Source: Tilletiaria anomala UBC 951 (Eukaryota > Basidiomycota > Exobasidiomycetes > Georgefischeriales > Tilletiariaceae). Taken from it: a stretch of DNA of 30,235 nucleotides. The notes under the pieces are model-generated. The model was not told where the DNA came from. It ran no database searches and saw only the letters and a program-made list of their open reading frames with translations. Positions within the stretch are counted from its first letter, which is position 1, and the number at the start of each line of letters is the position of its first letter. The position numbers were made by a program, and so were the translations under genes. Shown in pieces: positions 2,268-27,288 of the stretch. The stretch lies in contig NW_013546869.1 of NCBI RefSeq assembly GCF_000711695.1, positions 1 to 30,235 on the forward strand, read 5' to 3'.

Positions 2268-5200
2268 ATGTTGTTGCAGCCTTCCGCATCGGCCATCGAG
2301 CCAAGTCGCAGCACCGACGCCACAGCAGCGAATGGAGGAGCATGCACAGCAAGCCACGAAGGCCAGGCACTGAACCGAAATGAAGCAGCTCAAGATGACA
2401 CGTCCGGTGCCTATCTTAAGGTCGGCAAGGAGGAGGCAGACGCCTCTGTGCCGAAGGTAAGAGGGAGCAACAGCAAGTTGCCAGAGTGGATCACGAAGAA
2501 CGTCAAGGATCCGCACAGCTGGAAGATGCTCGCTCGTTGCTGTGAGTATGAGCAAGCTGTCCCGATGGCCTCTCCCTGACGCACCACAGTCCTAACCTCA
2601 CACATCTACCTTCTTGCTCGTATATTTCCCAGGGCTCGCCTCATGGGTCACGCTCATCCTCATGCTGCCGACGCGCTCACTGCAGACGTTTGGGCAAGCG
2701 GCGTTCTTTGCATCTATGATCACATTCATGATCCCGTCGAACATGCCGGTGTCGATCTGGCTCATCGCCAACGCGACGCTTGTCATCGGCTGCCTCCTCG
2801 GCTGGGCCTGGGGCGCCGCAGCGATGGCCGCAGGTCTGTTCTCGCGAGACAGCGTCCTGCTTGCCTCGCAGCTGCGCACCGCCCAAGCGTCCGTCGCCGC
2901 CGAGACCAACCCAGAGGCTGCGTTTAAATTGCGCATCTTCCAGGGGGATTTTCTCGACATCCGCGCGAGCGCCGTCATCGGCGCCTTCTTTGTCGTCGGC
3001 GCATACGCGCTCGGCATCATGATGGCCAAGGTGCCCAAGCTCCAGCTCAGCTGCATCTTTGCCTTGATCGTCATGGATATCATGTGTTCGTACGGTCCCC
3101 TTTTTCCGTGCGTATGCCCTCCCGTCTGCACGTCATCTTCATAGCAAGTAGTCTTGCATCTCAGTCAGCTTTCTTGCTCACTTTCTCTTTGTTCTCGCTC
3201 GGCAGGTTCGCGCAATACACCCTGGCGACCATATTCATGCTCCCCATCGGCGCCAGCCTCGGTGTCGCATTTGGCTGCATGCTCTTCGTCTTCCCTGAAA
3301 GTCTCAACTACTCGTGGACGCGCAACCTGGTCAGCATGCTCGAGTTGCAGCGCGCGCTGCTCGCTATGCACAGTGCCTTTATCTCCGACCCTGCGACGCA
3401 TAACACCCCTGCGCTCGAAGAGTTTGACCGCAAGCTCAAGGGTACATCCAATGGCCTCATCGGACTCAGCGATGCCCTCAGCGGCGAGGTCGCCTTCCTT
3501 GAACTCGACGTCTCGCGCGGACGCTTCTCTGGCAAAGACCTGCGCAAGCTCCTACTCGGCTTCCGCACGCTCAATGTCCGCCTATTCGGCATGGCTGCCT
3601 TCCCGCACCTGCTGCAGAATTTTGCTGACGGCGGGTATGTGGAGCAGAACGTCATGGGCGACCAAGGCGCGCCTCAGGAGGAGCCAGGGGCTGGGGACGC
3701 TGCTGCTGGAAAGGAAGGCAATGAATCATGGAAAGACTTGAAGCATCCCGTCCAGATCCACGATTCTACCTTGGTGCTTCGTGCGCGGCAGCGCATCCAG
3801 GAAGCCGAAGCAGAGCAACACGTCAAGCTGTCCACCTTGCAGCCGCTCATGGCCAAAGCGGCGGGGCCGACACTCGAAGCCTGCGGCGAGGCGCTTGGCG
3901 CAATCACCGCCTTCATCGATCGGACCAACCGCAGCCGGTGGCGCCTGCGCAAGCGAGACGATGCGCTCGAGGCGCAAACGCTGCAGCGCATACAGGATGC
4001 CGCGGCCAACCTTGCGCGCGTGCACCAGGCGTTCGTCGATGAAGAGCGCCTCGCGTTGTTCCGCCCGTACGAACATCACTTCAAGGTCGAGCGTGACGGC
4101 TCGCTGCACCTCGACGAACAGAGCGCCATCGAGTTCCGCACCGGCGGCCGCCCGCTGTTCCTGTGCCTCGTCTGGGTCGTCTCGCTGAGCCGCTTCAGCA
4201 AGCAGCTTGTCAAGGTATCCGACGAGATTCACGAGCTCGCCAGCAAGCGCCAGTCCAACAGACTCTGGCTCCCCTCCAGCTTGCGCAGCGTTTGGAAGGT
4301 GCTCACGTCCAAAAAGGCGACAGCCGGCGGCCCATTCAAGTTCTTCGCCAACACCGGACTGAGTCAAGAGGACACGGCTGCAGGTGATGGTGACGACGAT
4401 GACGATGAGGACCTGCAGCATTCGACCGCCTCATCGACCGTGGCGCTCGAGAAGGATGCTGAGCGCGACGCTTCGGGCAAGAAGGACATCAAGGCGTCAA
4501 AGGCCGACGGAAAAGGTACTCGTCGTCGTCGTCAGCGCCATCGGCGCAGGGCGGTTCGACGTGATCCGGACGCGATGCCACCTACCAACGCTTTGCACTA
4601 CCTCGGCAGGAGCATCACGGGGATCTACAACGTTATGACCTCCACTGACGGCATTTTCGCCCTTCGCGTCGCGGTTGTGACCCTCGCGCTATGGGTCCCC
4701 CAGGTGGTCCCGTCGTCCGCCGCGTTCTACTACCATCAGAGAGGGTGAGTTTCTGTGTAAGGGAGACGGAGAAAAAAACAAAAGCGCTGTTGCTGAACAT
4801 CACGCGAGTCCTTCGCAGCGTCTGGGCACTGATCATGGCTCAGCTCGGCCTGACGGTCTTCACCGGCGCGCAAGTCTTCGCCTCTATCGCTCGGATCGCT
4901 GGCACCATTGTCGGCGGGCTCATTGGAACGGCCATGTGGTACATCAGCGCAGGGTCTGGCAGCGGGAATGTCGTGAGTGCCAGCTTGTCAAGAAGGCCCC
5001 GCTTCCCTCCTTGTTCCCGCATGCTAAACGCCACTTTTCCTTCCCTCAGTATGCTTATGCTGTCGTTGGAGGTGTGGCATTCGTTCCTTTAGTCTTCCTA
5101 CGTTTGTATGTGCCGCCTGCCATGCTCGTACCGGCCCTCATGGTTGGCGTCACCGCGTGAGTCCGGACTGCCTTTGACAACGATCTTGAAAACGTGCGCC

Positions 5201-6329: not shown

Positions 6330-8230
6330 TTAGAATGTCGTCTTCTTCCCTTGGCTCGGCACGATGCTTACGGATGCGCGTGCCGCAGCCGCGAGAGCAG
6401 CCCCTGGCTTGGCACGTGCACCTCCTGTTACTGTCCTTGCGGCGCCTTTCTTGCCCCCAGAAGTCTTTTCTCTCTCACGCCTCGCTCTGCGCTCTTCCTG
6501 CGTCTCCTTGTGCTTTTTAGGCAGCGGTGCCTCGGGATCAAAAGTGCCAGGTGCAGGTACATCGATCGGGATCTGCTCTGCCGCAGGGTTAGCGTTAGCT
6601 TGAGGAGAATCAAGGATGATACCTGCAGCCGCGGCGCGTTGCGCAGCTTCCTCTTTCATTTTCTGTCTGGCCGCTTTGCCGGGTCGCGATTTAAACGACT
6701 TGCGCTCCTCCCTCCCCGCTCGCGCCGCGTCAATCTTTCCAGCGATGCGTTCGCCCTTCGGTGCACCTCGTCGCACCGCATCTGCACCGGCATACTGCAG
6801 GATGATTTCACGTCCGAGCAAGCGGTAGCATCGCGGATAGTCGATCAACGTCGCTGTTGCATGCGCTGTCGTATGGAAGTCGAGGAATGCGAAGCCCTTG
6901 CACTTCGTCGGCGCGTCTTCGAACGTCCCCAGGCGGATCTTTCGGATGCCAGCGCCACGGGCGCGTTTCTGCTCTTCTAACGGATCTTTCCCTGTTTCGT
7001 CCTTGCCGTCCGCTTCATCTTCGGAAGCGACATCGCTGCGCATCTCTTCATCGCTGTCCGAGTCACTGGTATCGTCATCGTTTGTATCGGCATCGTCGCC
7101 TCCCTTGTTTGCCCCCTTGCCTTTTTCGGTTGACTTCCCGCCCTTCTTGCGATTTGGGTTATTGTCCACGGCGAACTTTTGCATTCGCACCGTTGCGGCA
7201 TCCTCGAGCATTTTCTGTAATCCTTCCTCGGTCGTCTCAAAAGGTAGATTGCCCACGAAGAGGGTGGGCACCGGTGGGTTCTTTTGCGCACGGAGGATCT
7301 TCGCCGCAGTCTTGGTCAGGCCTGTCTTCCCAACTGTGATGTTCGCTGCTGCTGCTAGCTGCACATCGGTAGCACCTGCTGTATCAGAGCCATTGTGCAG
7401 GGAGGCTAGCGCCAAAGAAGCGGCGTCTGGGTTGATCGCCGGCCGGCCGGCAAAATCAGAGCCATTCTTGATGAGCAGACGCCTGCCGTCTAGATTGTTT
7501 TCCGAGAGCTTGATGGCTGCCTCAACCATATCATTGGAAGGTAAGTCGATGTATGCGAAGCTGTGGAGGTGGAATCAACGTTTTAAAGACCATGAGACTT
7601 GTGCTTCGAAGTGTCCCAGCAAACTTACCCTCGGTTGTATTCTCCTCGCTTGGCACCTTTTGGCATGTAAACACGTGATATGCCTTCAATTTCATGTTCT
7701 TGCAGCCATTCTTGTATCCGATCAGGGCTCGTGCGGAAAGATAGATTACCAATCCAGATCGAATACGGAGAGCGAGCAGGAACCTCTGGCTTGGCGTTTG
7801 GTTTTGCTTTGACACTATCAACCGGTCCGGTTTGGTCTTTGTCTGCCAAGTCAGATACCTTTCCGCTAGACTGGCTGCGCTGCTGTTGCTTTTCGACCCT
7901 CCGGCGCTTGCGTTGCTCCTTGTGTGAGAGGGGCTCTACTCCCTCAACTGCCTCTGCATGTTCCTTACCGTCAGCGGGACCAGCGTCACCTTCGCCATTT
8001 GCTGAACGCTCGCCATGCGTATCAACGTCATCACGCTTCCGTTTCGACTTCAAGCCATTCTTGCTGTTTTCCGCGGCATCTGCGTCTGCGTCTGTCTCTA
8101 CCTCTGCAGACGCTATCCCATCGGCCCCCCGCTGCTTAGCCTTCTCGGCCTTGCGAGCGAGACGCTTCTCCTTATTTGTCATCACGTCTGCCTGCGCTGG
8201 AGGCGTCTGTACGCCACCGGTCTCCGCCAT
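6330..8230 (-). CDS. NOP13: Nop13-like nucleolar RNA-binding protein, two RRMs
   Basis: Two exons on the minus strand, 8230-7629 and 7560-6330, flank a 68-nt intron (GTAAGT..CACAG, phase 2), giving 610 residues. The N-terminus is Lys/Arg/Glu-rich. RRM1 begins near residue 155 (YSIWIGNLSF) and runs across the splice into GFAYIDLPS and LDGRRLLIKNGSDFAGRP; this last segment is characteristic of Nop13. RRM2 begins near 299 (TLFVGNLPFETTEE), with RNP1 as KGFAFLDF near 422-429. It is interrupted by a roughly 70-residue Lys then Asp/Glu/Ser-rich insertion (about 332-403). The tail is basic, as in nucleolar ribosome-biogenesis factors. Nop13 is known from pre-ribosomal particles; the role here is by family. 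The start at 8230 puts MTNKEKRLARKAEKAK near the N-terminus. An in-frame ATG at 8374 would add 48 residues and is the alternative. It is divergent from the MTFP1-PPT2 gene. Confidence 0.85.
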
Positions 8231-8733
8231 TGGCTCACTTAGGGAGGTTGTTTGACGCACAGCAATATGATTTGCTCGAGTCAGTGACTCTGTTGTGCAG
8301 CCCGCGATGCAATCGCCAGGCCTCGTCGTAAAGATGGTGTAGAGACGGTTGGCAAATCGCACTGACTGTGCCATTCTTGTCGATTGGCGGGAGAGCAATC
8401 CAAAAAAAAATGCATACTTTCTTTTTCCAGTTCCGAGTCCCGATTTGCTCAAAAAGAAAGAAAGCGAGCGAGCCAAGTCAGACTGCGACTGAGCTATAGG
8501 CTGAGAGCTCTGAGCAAGGGGGCCAAGGCCAAGCACGGGCCGCTCTGGCTGTGCAACATCCAACGCGGGCCGACGCGAAGGTGAGGGCCACACTCCGACG
8601 CCTACCATCTGTCCACCATCGGTTCAGACGCTACATGCGTATCGCGATGGTACGCCCATAAGGAGGCGGACCACCGTGAAGGGAGTCCTTGATTCTGCAG
8701 GAAGAAGGCTCTTGGAAAGGATAACACTGCAAG
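8231..8733. promoter_or_regulatory. Divergent intergenic region between NOP13 and MTFP1-PPT2
   Basis: Both flanking genes point outward, so both promoters must lie in this 500-base gap. A run of nine A near 8402-8410 followed by pyrimidine-rich TTTCTTTTTCC is the only obvious composition feature. If NOP13 starts at 8374, the shared region shrinks to about 360 bases. No specific factor site is claimed. Confidence 0.4.
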
Positions 8734-10596
8734 ATGTCTTCTCCAGCTCAAGCCAGCGCAGACCCCATCGGGGACGGGCTGGACGGAGGGCCTGGTCGAT
8801 ATGCTGCATACTTGATGCGCTTGCGTACGCTCATCACCGCTAGCTCGCGATACATTGCGTGCGTGAAGCTCAGTGGAAGGACAATTTGGTGAAGGATTCT
8901 GACTGCCATCCTATTCTCCCCATCGCAGATACTCGTCTGATGTTGGCGAAGCCTTCCGTCCACTCACATCGCCCAACGTTGTGCGAGCGGCCTATGGCAT
9001 CTCATGGGCATACCTCGCCTTGGATGTCGGCTACGCGGGCTACAAGGCCCATCTGGCGCATCATGAGGCTGTATCTCCGCTTGAGTCGATCAATAATTCC
9101 CTGTTGAAAGCTAGGAATGACATCGACAAGCTGTCCCCAGCTGAAAAGGTCGAGCTGAAGAAGCGTCAATTCGACATCTCGAACGATGCAACCCTCTCAC
9201 CTCACCATTCGGAGATCACGAATATAGGGCTGGTCGTCGCACGCCGCGCAGTCTTTCAAAGCATCGCGTCAATGGCACTGCCAGCATTCACAATCCATTC
9301 GATCGTCCGCTACTCAGCGCCGCTGTTTGCCAAGAGCTCCAATGCACGTGTGCGTGCTGCCGGTCCCACGGTCGCGGGACTGGCATTCGTCCCTGCCTTG
9401 CCGTATCTGTTTGATAAGCCCGTTGAGCATGTGGTCGACGCAATTTTCGACAAGGGCGAAGGTATTCTTCTCGGCTCGACGAGCGCTGCGCGCAGCGAGG
9501 CGGGAAAGAAGGCTGAGCAGAATGTCCACGACTCGGAAGGGTTGTTGAAGCAGAAAGAGAAGCAAGTGGAAAAGGAGGCAAGAAAACTAAAGGATCAAGT
9601 GGAAGGAGCCTTCTCCTCATTACGCTCCAAGGCAACTACCAGCGCTGACAGCTCGGAGAATTCCAACCTGGTCGCCAAAGCCGTGATTCTCGGCATCGGC
9701 ATCGACCTGCTCTATCTCCCGCGCCTTCAGACCCTGCTGCACCGCCAAGCGCAGCGCATGGCGGCCGGCAGCGCCCGACGGCCGCGGATACTGGCGGGTA
9801 TGGGCGGTTTGGAAGGCAGCGATGCCTCGCTGCGTCGCTTCGTCATGCCTGCCACGTTGGGTGCAGGAATGAAGTTAGCGGAGCGCATTGGCTGCGAGAG
9901 GGAGCGGCAGCAGTTTCACAAGCTTTTTGTCGGTGACGCAAAACCCGAAGCGGGGTTCACAAATGCCAAGGCTATGCGATGGCTTGCTTTGAGGTGAGGT
10001 GGCGACAAGGCTTCGTCGTGCGGGATACCACTGTCTTGGAGATGCTTACCTTTTCACTGCATGTACACCCCCTCAAAGAGAATAGATGGACCGCAAAAGA
10101 GGCGGCATACAAGGCGCTTTATCCGCATTTGAAACTCCGATGGGCAGATCTCGACGTTCATAAGCCAGCCGACGCATCTGCCACTGCACCTTCCTGTGCG
10201 AACGGCGCTGGGGACGGGGCGCAGAAGGAGGAAAGGCTAGGCCTGTTGGCAAAAGCGTACCTGAGCGGATCAGCAGTAGGAAACGGTGGTCAAAGCGCGA
10301 AGCCAGTGCTGAGCTTCTCCCATGCATTCAAGCAACGCTGGGCCCAGGAACGTGAAGGCCGGTGCAACGGTTCAGTCCCAGGCGCATTTGCAAGTCCGAC
10401 ATTGGATGCTGCGCAACTAAAAGTAGAGGCGAGAAAAGGCGAGGAGCTGGAAGGTCCTGAACAAGAAGCAAAACGCATAGAGCTTCACTTGAGTATCACC
10501 CACGACGGAGACCTGTGCATGGCGCAGGTCATCGCAGAGCTCGTAGACGCACATCGTTCGCCGACCCAGGAACAACTCCAGCACTTAGTACTATAG
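8734..10596 (+). CDS. MTFP1/MTP18 mitochondrial fission protein fused to 4'-phosphopantetheinyl transferase (Ppt2/AcpS type)
   Basis: Exons 8734-8858, 8929-9993 and 10086-10596 give 566 residues, with all junctions in frame. Residues about 38-220 match MTFP1/MTP18: RYIAYSSDVGEAFRP, then AAYGISWAYLALDVGY, SMALPAFTIHSIV, and GLAFVPALPYLFDKPVEHVV with the family's C-terminal P-x-x-H/D pattern. MTFP1 is an inner mitochondrial membrane protein. A charged helical linker (about 229-280) follows. Residues about 293-566 are an AcpS-fold transferase: VILGIGIDLLYLPRL holds the Mg-binding Asp (about 301), and RWTAKEAAYKAL (about 397-408) holds the catalytic Glu and Lys; near the end LSITHDGDLCMAQVIAE is the usual last core strand. 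Such enzymes move phosphopantetheine from CoA onto acyl carrier protein. Both domains lie in one 1065-nt exon with no stop and no in-frame Met between them. Intron 2 (9994-10085) splits the catalytic motif. The transferase has a long low-complexity insert after LDVHKP. Confidence 0.85.
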
Positions 10597-10733
10597 AAAC
10601 AGTAACCGGGAACAAGAATCTGAGACGGATGTTTTGACAGGAGGATGCTACATGGGATGAAGGAGACGGCGATAGCGTAGTGTCTCGTGCGAGTTGTTTT
10701 CTTATTCTCTTTGGATCACATGGTCAGACTGAG

Positions 10734-11719
10734 CTATGCATCGACGAAGTTCTTGACGTTCTCGAGCCACCTGCAGTATTCGCGCTGCTCCTTCCACTCA
10801 GCCAGCTCCGGGATGAAAAGCGCGAGGTTGGCAGCGATGCCGCGCTCCTCAAGGAAAGCGTAAAACTGCTCTTGGACCTTCTCGTCGAGCGTCTCGAACT
10901 GCGGGCCGACGTAGAGACCCCGGCGCTGCCAGTCCGCTTCGACGGTCAGCTCCGAGGCGAGCTTGGCGTCCGAATAGAATGAGATGGCTTCCACGATGAA
11001 CTCGCCGTCTTGGGCTTGCGCATCAATGTTTAGCGCACCCTGGTTCGGCTACAAGCAGTTGAAGAGATGAAGCAGTGTGAGTGGGATAAGGAAATGTACG
11101 AATAAATAAGGAGCAATCGGGGACGCACCTTCGAGATAGTGATGGCGACTCGAACCGGGAACCCGGCTTCCTCTGACTCTTCGCTGCCCTCAACACCAGA
11201 CTCGCCCTCCTCGCCCATGCCACTGACGGAAGCACTGCTGTCCAAGTCTCCGATGGAGAAGAGCACGCGGATGTGCTCATTTCCGAATTCCCTCGTCAAG
11301 GCAATTTCATCTCCGCCAGTCTTCTCCTCGACTTTCCAGACGCCTTCATTCTTGAAGGCGGTCAAGAATTCCGGCTCATCGCCTGATGTAGCGGCAGTCG
11401 ATGAAGATTCGTCTTTCTCGTACTTGATCTCTTCGACCAGCGACGCGGATAGCTCAGCGTCCGACTCGCCTTGCCCTCGCGCTGCGATGGAGCTGCTGAA
11501 TGCGTGGGATGCGAGCCGGAAGCTCCACGAGCAGGATTTGCTGCCTCTGGCAACGTGATTCCCGTACGAAGACAAGGAAACCTGAGTGAGGATGCCTCGC
11601 TGAGACACTGCAGCACCCGCAGTAGCGAGCCGAGCTGGAAGGGCGGCGCCGCTGGCACGAGACGTGGAGCCTTTGCGCAAAGAGGCAGCGGCCGCACGGC
11701 GACCGGCGAGCATGAGCAT
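10734..11719 (-). CDS. MAM33: Mitochondrial p32 / Mam33 family protein
   Basis: Exons 11719-11129 and 11048-10734 on the minus strand give 301 residues. The 80-nt intron (GTGCGT..GTAG) is phase 0. The first 60-90 residues are rich in Ala, Arg and Ser with almost no acids (MLMLAGRRAAAASLRKG), as in a mitochondrial presequence. The mature part begins with acidic SDAELSASLVEEIKYEKDE, continues with FLTAFKNEGVWKVEEK and VRVAITISK, and ends with YVGPQFETLDEKVQEQFYAF and FLEERGI..LA.FIPELAEWKEQREYCRWLENVKNF. This is the p32/gC1qBP/Mam33 core, an acidic doughnut-shaped matrix trimer tied to mitochondrial translation and respiration. Two ATGs (11719 and 11713) lie two codons apart. It is convergent with the MTFP1-PPT2 gene (137-base gap) and divergent from NDUFB7. 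Confidence 0.92.
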
Positions 11720-24792: not shown

Positions 24793-26688
24793 CTAATCAT
24801 CATCCCAGTTCGGGTTCTGCTTCGGCGCCTTGATTCCCGCCGGTTTGGCCATGATGATCGAGTCGACGTTCAGCACGTTGACCGCTGCGCCGGTAGCGTA
24901 GCGTAGCGCCCAGTACTTGGCCGACAACACATCCAGGATCTGCTTGGACGTCGCAGACACTGTGCCGTCCTCGGACTCGTCCTGAGCACAGAGGAGAACG
25001 ATGGGTCAAGAGGGCCGGAAATAGGGTGTTATCAGCACCGAGCAAAGCGCAGGATGAGGCCAACGCCAAGTGCCTTCTACCTGACTCACCTCAATGTCGA
25101 CACCAACTTCGGCGCCCTTGCCTTCCTTGCCCTCGTGCCGCGCGTACAAGCTGCTAACGACCTGCGTGGCGTTGAGACCTGCATTCTCCGCCAGCGTACG
25201 CGGCACGACCTCGAGCGCCTCTGCGAACTTCTTGATCGCGTGTTGGTTCAGACCGGGCGTCTTTTCGCCGAAGCGCATGATGCGCTTCGCCAGCTCCAAC
25301 TCCGTTGCGCCGGCGCCGGGGACGAGGCGCGCATCCTTGGTGAGCGACTTGATCACATTGACACCATCATCAATCGCCCGTTCAACGTCATCAAGGAGGT
25401 TTGCTGTCGCGCCGCGCAGCACGACCGTCGCCATCTTCGGCTTCGACTTCCCGCCGAGCTTGCCATCCTCCTGCCGGAAGACTGTCACTCGGTCCCCACC
25501 GATCTCCGTCGTCTCCACAACGTCCACCCACCCGGCCTCCTCGGGCATCGGCGCGCCGAGCCGCGCGAGCGGCGTAGCGCCCACCAGCCGCGCCAGCCGG
25601 CGCACCTCGAACTTGCTCAGGATCTTGACGCATAGAATTTCGAACCGGTTCAAGTAGTGCAGCGCAAGCTCGCCTACCGTGCTCTGCGTGATGACAATCT
25701 TGACGCCTGAATCGGCGATCTCCTTGATGATCTTCTCCAGTTGCTTCTCTTCGCCCTGCGTGAACGCGCTGAGCTCCTTGGCATTGTGCAGCAGCACGGT
25801 ACCCTTGGTTTCCGTCTGCGAAATGTCCATGCCACATGTAAAGATCGCCACCTTGCCTCCCTCGGGCACGGCGCGCACACTGCCCTCCGGCTGCCGGCCA
25901 AAGACCATCCCGCGCACGACCCGCGACTCTGACAAGGACCCGCCCATGATCTTGACGACGCGAACGTTGTCGACGTTGATGTTGGATAGGCCGCCAGTGG
26001 TCCTCACCTCTGATGCCGTCTGCTTCTCGACGGCCGTCGGGAAGACGAGCGAAACTGCCTGAGCGACAAGCGGTGCTAGAATATCCTCTTGCCCGTATTG
26101 CTTGGATGCCAGCGATGGCCGAATCGCCAATGCCAGCGACTCTACCGAGGGAGGTGAGCTGAGTGATGCAACCGAGAGAGCTGAGAGCGTAGAAGGTTGC
26201 GAAGCGTCAGAAAGTCATGGGAGCGCTCGGTTCACCATGCATAGCAAGCATCACCCACTCTCAAGTTCTTCTAGGGCCTTGTCCCTCGCCAGCTCGTAGC
26301 CCTGCAGAATTTCACTCGGGTGGAGACCCATCGTGATCAGGTACTCTGCCTTCTTGAGGAGCTCTCCAGCAAAGATGAGGACGAGGTTGGTCGCGTCTCC
26401 CATTTCGGCCTCCTGCTGCTGACTCGCCATGACCAAGAGCCTTGCTGCGGGATGGACCACCTCCAACTCGCGAATGATGGTCGCTGCATCGTTGGTGACA
26501 AAGAGCCGCTCGAGGTGGTTGATGACCATCTTGTTCCTCCCGTTTGGTCCAAAGGATGTACGCACAATTTCTGACAGTTCGTTGATGGCCTGAATGTTCC
26601 GCAGCACGGCCTCCTCAATGCCTTGAAGGTGCTTGTAACCATCTTTGAAGAGCGACGGCCCGCCCGCCTTGGGTACTTTTAATGACAT
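24793..26688 (-). CDS. CCT8: T-complex protein 1 subunit theta (CCT8)
   Basis: Exons 26688-26259, 26180-25090 and 24981-24793 on the minus strand give 569 residues. The introns are 78 nt (GTGGGT..CTCAG, phase 1) and 108 nt (GTGAGT..CTCAG, phase 0). The product is one of the eight subunits of the cytosolic TRiC/CCT ring, which folds actin, tubulin and WD-repeat proteins with ATP. Visible group II chaperonin features are RTSFGPNGRNKMV, FVTNDAATIIRELEVVHPAA and GDATNLVLIFAGELL in the equatorial domain; VDNVRVVKIMGGS and DISQTETKGTVLLHNA leading into the apical domain; VGATPLARLG; and GGDRVTVFRQE, RGATANLLDDVERAIDDG and VPGAGATELELAKRI on return. The final exon reads LDVLSAKYWALRYATGAAVN and IIMAKPAG, the theta-type C-terminus, with an acidic end WDDD. 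Length is normal. An upstream in-frame codon run (QTRRRLPLVRSGK) precedes the chosen ATG and is probably leader. Confidence 0.97.
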
Positions 26689-27288
26689 CTTGCCGCTTCT
26701 GACTAGAGGCAGTCTCCTCCTCGTTTGCAATAAACTGAAGAGGTAGATCTACTCCCGGGTTGGACGCGGGTCGTATGGTAATGCAACATCCACGCCGAGG
26801 ATCAATTTGTGGGACTGCAAGGATGGAGTTATTGTGTGTATCGGGGGGGGTGTTGCAGAAGATTCTGGCAGCGCGAAATCAGCTGGTGCGGCGGAAGCGA
26901 CATAGTTCTATGAAGACGCACTCACCTTACGTGACCAAGCCCATTGGCGGTTGCACCGAATGTAATGGCGCAGCTCATACGTGTTCTCACTTCGCATAGA
27001 GGTACCAATCAGTATAGGCACCGCTGAGGGAACGAAGCACACAGCGCATGTGCATGCTCCTTTGTTGTGCACCATGATTATTTTTATGTGCTCTGGATTC
27101 TGCGGCCTGCGGTATCGAGATGCGCGTACGAGAGCTTGGAGATTCTAAACGTGCCGTATCTCGAGAGCCAAGCCGTCTTCAGGCCGAGCTTTGCTCAGAA
27201 ATGAGAAGACCTTGATGAAACCCCTCTTCTCTGAATCGTAGTAAAAACAAAGTAATTGCCACTCCAAACCCGAGCTGAGCCGACGAAA
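26689..27288. other. 600-base stretch upstream of CCT8, no gene seen
   Basis: It lies between the CCT8 start and the decayed regulator and must contain the CCT8 promoter. The frames are short and without motifs. A run of nine G occurs near 26841-26849. Confidence 0.5.

Follow-up and report, generated by a model that had tools for sequence, protein, structure and literature searches.

A predicted fungal gene joining an MTP18 (MTFP1) domain and an AcpS-type phosphopantetheinyl transferase in one reading frame

In mouse heart, MTFP1 has been described as an inner-membrane protein, and proteins of complexes I, IV and V have been reported to co-purify with its tagged form (PMC9636241). The fungal mitochondrial phosphopantetheinyl transferases (Ppt2, PptB) are described as AcpS-type enzymes that transfer phosphopantetheine to the mitochondrial acyl carrier protein (ACP), with the Candida albicans enzyme spanning 135 residues (PMC4659657). 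We analyzed a 30,235-nt stretch of the Tilletiaria anomala UBC 951 genome (contig NW_013546869.1, positions 1 to 30,235; hereafter the window), in which a single gene is predicted to encode both domains, a new pairing of known families whose members usually are known as separate proteins. The original prediction had named an MTFP1 and an AcpS-type domain, and both identities were borne out by Pfam matches over cut-off and by alignment of the AcpS motifs. In the retrieved portions of the open-access literature, no description of an MTFP1-AcpS join was found among the matches listed; such a join may already sit unnoticed in fungal protein databases. Judged by title and the opening of the abstract, the papers matching MTFP1 together with phosphopantetheinyl transferase do not deal with such a join, and at least some seem to concern mTFP1, a fluorescent protein.

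Gene model and the two conserved domains

The predicted gene and its surroundings comprise the following features.

8231-8733, no strand: upstream space, ~500 bp to a divergent minus-strand gene, if the start of that gene at 8230 is right
8734-10596, plus strand: fusion gene with three exons; predicted product of 566 aa and 61.0 kDa (computed)
8734-8858, plus strand: exon 1, encoding roughly aa 1-42, in which the MTP18 domain begins
8859-8928, plus strand: intron 1, 70 nt, GTGCGT...CAG, branch-like CTGAC 30 nt from its end
8929-9993, plus strand: exon 2, 1065 nt, with most of MTP18, the linker and the first AcpS motif
9437-9682, plus strand: charged linker, aa 212-293 (82 aa), ~246 nt of coding DNA, in frame and coding-like
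9683-9993, plus strand: first part of the AcpS-type domain, with GIGIDL at aa 297
9994-10085, plus strand: intron 2, 92 nt, GTGAGG...TAG, branch-like CTTAC 41 nt from its end
10086-10596, plus strand: exon 3, completing the AcpS domain (KEAAYKAL at aa 401, LHLSITHDG at aa 530) and including the stop codon
10597-10733, no strand: 137-nt downstream space, beyond which a convergent MAM33 gene ends

The start codon was assigned to ATG 8734, the first in-frame ATG after the TAA at 8722, and the computed mass agrees with the product of about 62 kDa that had been expected. Removal of intron 1 restores conserved RYIAYSSDVGEAFR, and removal of intron 2 restores conserved LALRWTAKEA, which aligned with LAARWAAKEA of solved holo-ACP synthases. 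Judged by the general rules for such signals, both predicted introns carry ordinary fungal-type signals.

In the spliced protein, Pfam MTP18 (PF10558) matched aa 22-211 (profile positions 4-171 of 171, E 9.3e-66), passing the curated cut-off (221.5 bits versus 25) with the whole profile covered. Three hydrophobic stretches were found in this part (58-77, 137-176 and 181-211) by a hydropathy measure that is crude, because its maximum for the whole protein (1.62) begins at aa 287, where the AcpS domain starts and one would expect a soluble core. Relatives were sought with short-peptide patterns, which were taken from this protein alone and detect only close relatives: 72 stretches matched in prokaryotic genome contigs and 20 and 17 in viral contigs, with no confirmed relatives in either. 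A degenerate YxxDVGEAFR-like pattern occurred in 22 bacterial records and one viral record, and tblastn of the MTP18 part against those 23 loci gave a best E of 0.059 among the matches listed. PF10558 was found in none of three genomes or records and none of 14 control genomes, which does not show absence. A gene for a mitochondrial 18 kDa protein has been reported in prasinoviruses and is explained there via the translocator protein (18 kDa) (PMC12906663); the family of this protein may differ from MTP18.

For the second half, Pfam ACPS (PF01648) matched aa 356-430 (profile positions 20-85 of 111, E 3.1e-10), again above the curated cut-off (40.5 bits versus 25). Motifs like GIGIDL, RWxAKEA and HLSxTH are located at aa 297, 401 and 530. 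The long second exon had been said to run into the transferase; it carries only the first motif (GIGIDL) through LALR, and the KEA and HLSITH motifs sit in exon 3. Among the holo-ACP synthase models of NCBIfam, which serve bacterial and archaeal annotation, the best E for the AcpS half was 2.8e-11; the cut-offs were reached by none of 12 families with the AcpS half and none of 13 in a separate comparison, a result that we counted against our main reading (best score 43.8 bits versus a cut-off of 107, and 27.0 versus 59.8 for TIGR00516, both with the AcpS half). Matches to solved structures were weak and likewise were counted against it, the best E being 0.064 when the whole protein was the query and 0.0048 when the AcpS part was. 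The latter query returned 17 sequences up to E 10, a few of them unrelated proteins. In all five alignments shown between the AcpS part and solved holo-ACP synthases, the GIGIDL, KEA and HLSITH stretches were aligned, and the whole-protein query aligned two motif stretches in three of the three shown. The GIGIDL stretch scored negative in four of the five, which also was counted against. From aa 293 on, the AcpS part comprises 274 residues and must carry insertions, given the 135 residues of the C. albicans enzyme. Long insertions are apparent at about aa 313-355 and 430-525 (limits by eye), in a domain about twice the size of that enzyme.

On the upstream side, RRM_1 was matched in the open reading frame (ORF) 6333-7574 and no Pfam match was found in ORF 7628-8623; we infer that the two form one RRM-protein gene on the minus strand. 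This gene likely starts at Met 8230, with Mets 8374 and 8608 of ORF 7628-8623 as alternatives. The MAM33-family gene on the other side (10734-11719, minus strand) has an R/A/S-rich, presequence-like N-terminus. Other Pfam matches in the window were to an ArAE_2_N transporter, a 2-hydroxyacid dehydrogenase and a TCP-1/cpn60 chaperonin, the last a minus-strand gene at 25009-26748 extending over at least two ORFs; ten further ORFs in the window had no Pfam match. This gene content, together with the introns and the AcpS-type enzyme, is consistent with a fungus.

The linker and its reading frame

The exon of 1065 nt was said to be open from the MTP18 core into AcpS. This reading held for 8929-9993, and none of 5000 first-order Markov copies of exon 2 (8930-9991) were open. 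Codon usage was scored with a model trained on six gene parts of the window (1330 codons), four cut to the Pfam match and two extended past it. The linker stretch 9434-9682 (83 codons) scored +0.32 bits per codon in the reading frame, with both of its halves positive (+0.47 and +0.16), while the other five frames had negative scores and contained stops. The MTP18 and AcpS parts of exon 2 each scored +0.12. Exon 3 scored -0.06 and exon 1 scored -0.34, the latter not above the +1 frame, and both values were counted against the model. That the linker is open says little by itself, because 12% of 5000 Markov copies of 9434-9682 were open, but none of the 5000 reached its codon score. Across six frames, 51 of 527 stop-free windows of linker size scored at least as high as the linker. 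Of the best 25 of these, 20 lie inside training ORFs by our count, which favours them. Among the other five, at least one window scoring above the linker, at 4005-4253 on the minus strand, is antisense to the transporter gene, and the codon score therefore supports coding without proving it.

In-frame Met codons of the predicted protein are at aa 1, 28, 157, 319, 333, 348, 356, 391 and 542. This list agrees with the claim that the MTP18 core and VILGIGIDLL (aa 294) have no in-frame Met between them: after M157, which still belongs to MTP18, the next one is M319, beyond GIGIDL. The further claim that there is no room for a terminator or promoter was too strong; with ~246 nt of linker coding DNA, there is little room. 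For a splice that would end MTFP1 alone, no GTRNG donor was found from 9434 on. Candidate introns were defined by a GTRNG donor, a YAG acceptor and a length of 40-300 nt, with CTNAY as the branch-like site rather than CTRAY, which intron 2 (CTTAC) would fail. Eight candidates between 9000 and 9700 fit these rules, two of which, of 293 and 295 nt, have a branch-like site. The close neighbours on both sides were counted for a one-gene reading as well. Based on the kept frame, the codon use of the linker, the absent Met and the few rule-fitting introns, the locus very probably gives rise to one fused primary translation product.

Fate of the product and other readings of the locus

We propose that the locus is a single nuclear gene for a mitochondrial fusion protein, in which a charged linker connects MTP18 to an AcpS-type transferase. 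The protein would be imported into mitochondria; its MTP18 half would insert in the inner membrane, while its AcpS half would serve as a Ppt2/PptB-type enzyme, transferring 4'-phosphopantetheine from CoA to mitochondrial ACP. If the halves stay joined, a step that is less certain, the enzyme would be tethered to the inner membrane. For a fused product that stays joined in this manner, we judge the chances to be about even. The original prediction went further and put the anchored enzyme next to complex I and the fission machinery, a speculative placement; what bears on it for complex I is the co-purification reported for tagged MTFP1.

A serious rival to staying joined is that the fused precursor is putatively cut in the linker after import, yielding separate MTFP1 and AcpS proteins, an outcome that we consider possible but hold only tentatively. 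Fungi are known to have mitochondrial precursors that are fused and then cleaved, examples being Arg5,6 of yeast and Rsm22-Cox11 of fission yeast. In the predicted protein, no domain was matched above cut-off in the linker, which is long and charged. Matches to Phasin and DUF883 in the linker were below cut-off and were dismissed as helix-composition matches; a single-sequence AF2 model of exon 2, too poor to be used (mean pLDDT 44), has the linker as a long helix at low confidence. The distribution of charge around the hydrophobic stretches also bears on tethering. With a net charge of +4 for aa 160-190, the positive-inside rule would place the C-terminus in the intermembrane space and not in the matrix. 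The middle hydrophobic stretch (137-176) could, by its length, cross the membrane twice, and the C-terminus would then lie on the opposite side. We count the lean of the charges as a real difficulty for the idea of a matrix-tethered enzyme.

Two proteins might also be made from the one locus, with a second product starting at M157 (ATG 9272) or at a spliced ATG 9342; this we regard as improbable. M157 is in frame with the AcpS half, and the 47 residues that follow from it (aa 157-203, encoded by 9272-9412) include no acidic residues and four K/R and are presequence-like by eye, such that a product initiated there might in principle be targeted to mitochondria. Under the GTRNG/YAG rules, six combinations give a separate AcpS start; a branch-like site is present in one of them (ATG 9342, donor 9350, acceptor 9642, 293 nt). 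Looser GT-AG introns of 40-250 nt gave 313 formal one-intron AcpS starts, five of them conforming to GTRNG/YAG and a further 15 carrying a CTRAY site. However, each of the rule-fitting second starts would require a transcription start within the MTP18 coding sequence, and the branch-supported intron is more than three times the length of introns 1 and 2 (70 and 92 nt). An assembly or base-calling error, by which a stop codon or an intergenic stretch between two neighbouring genes was lost, is very improbable, as the frame is kept in both scored halves of the linker, homopolymers of at least 5 within 8700-10650 start only at 9924 and 10068, and a separate AcpS would still be without an in-frame start codon.

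Implications and comparison with known fusions

Returning to the fused product whose halves stay joined, the join would be a Rosetta-stone-type hint connecting an inner-membrane protein of debated role with mitochondrial fatty acid synthesis, and the topology of MTP18 would be directly testable through the fusion. The stronger proposal, that the MTFP1 module permanently tethers a holo-ACP synthase and couples ACP activation to the location or state of an inner-membrane dynamics protein, seems rather doubtful to us. If it is true, lipoate and complex I assembly would be linked, via mitochondrial ACP, to an inner-membrane dynamics protein, and the fusion would be a natural reporter for a matrix-facing MTP18 C-terminus. 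If the precursor instead is cut after import, the fusion would mainly amount to a shared promoter and a single import step, and one gene serving two mitochondrial proteins in this way would be less surprising.

Compared with MTFP1/MTP18 proteins, the predicted fusion matches nearly the entire profile (PF10558) but continues past the end of the match at aa 211 through the linker into the enzyme. Like Ppt2/PptB, it has an AcpS-type domain with the GIGIDL, KEA and HLSITH motifs, whereas this domain comprises 274 residues, versus 135 in C. albicans, and is placed after a membrane domain. With fused mitochondrial precursors and transferase domains fused elsewhere, the kind of arrangement is already known in part. 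As for Rsm22-Cox11 and Arg5,6, two mitochondrial proteins would be made as one precursor, but the partners here differ and cleavage is putative. The phosphopantetheinyl transferase domain of fungal fatty acid synthase is of AcpS type and C-terminal. There too, a transferase domain is fused to another protein (FAS1/FAS2; PMC4393869). In the fatty acid synthase, the transferase is joined to the complex holding its ACP substrate; in the predicted protein, in which no ACP domain was matched by Pfam, the AcpS-type domain instead is joined to a membrane protein.
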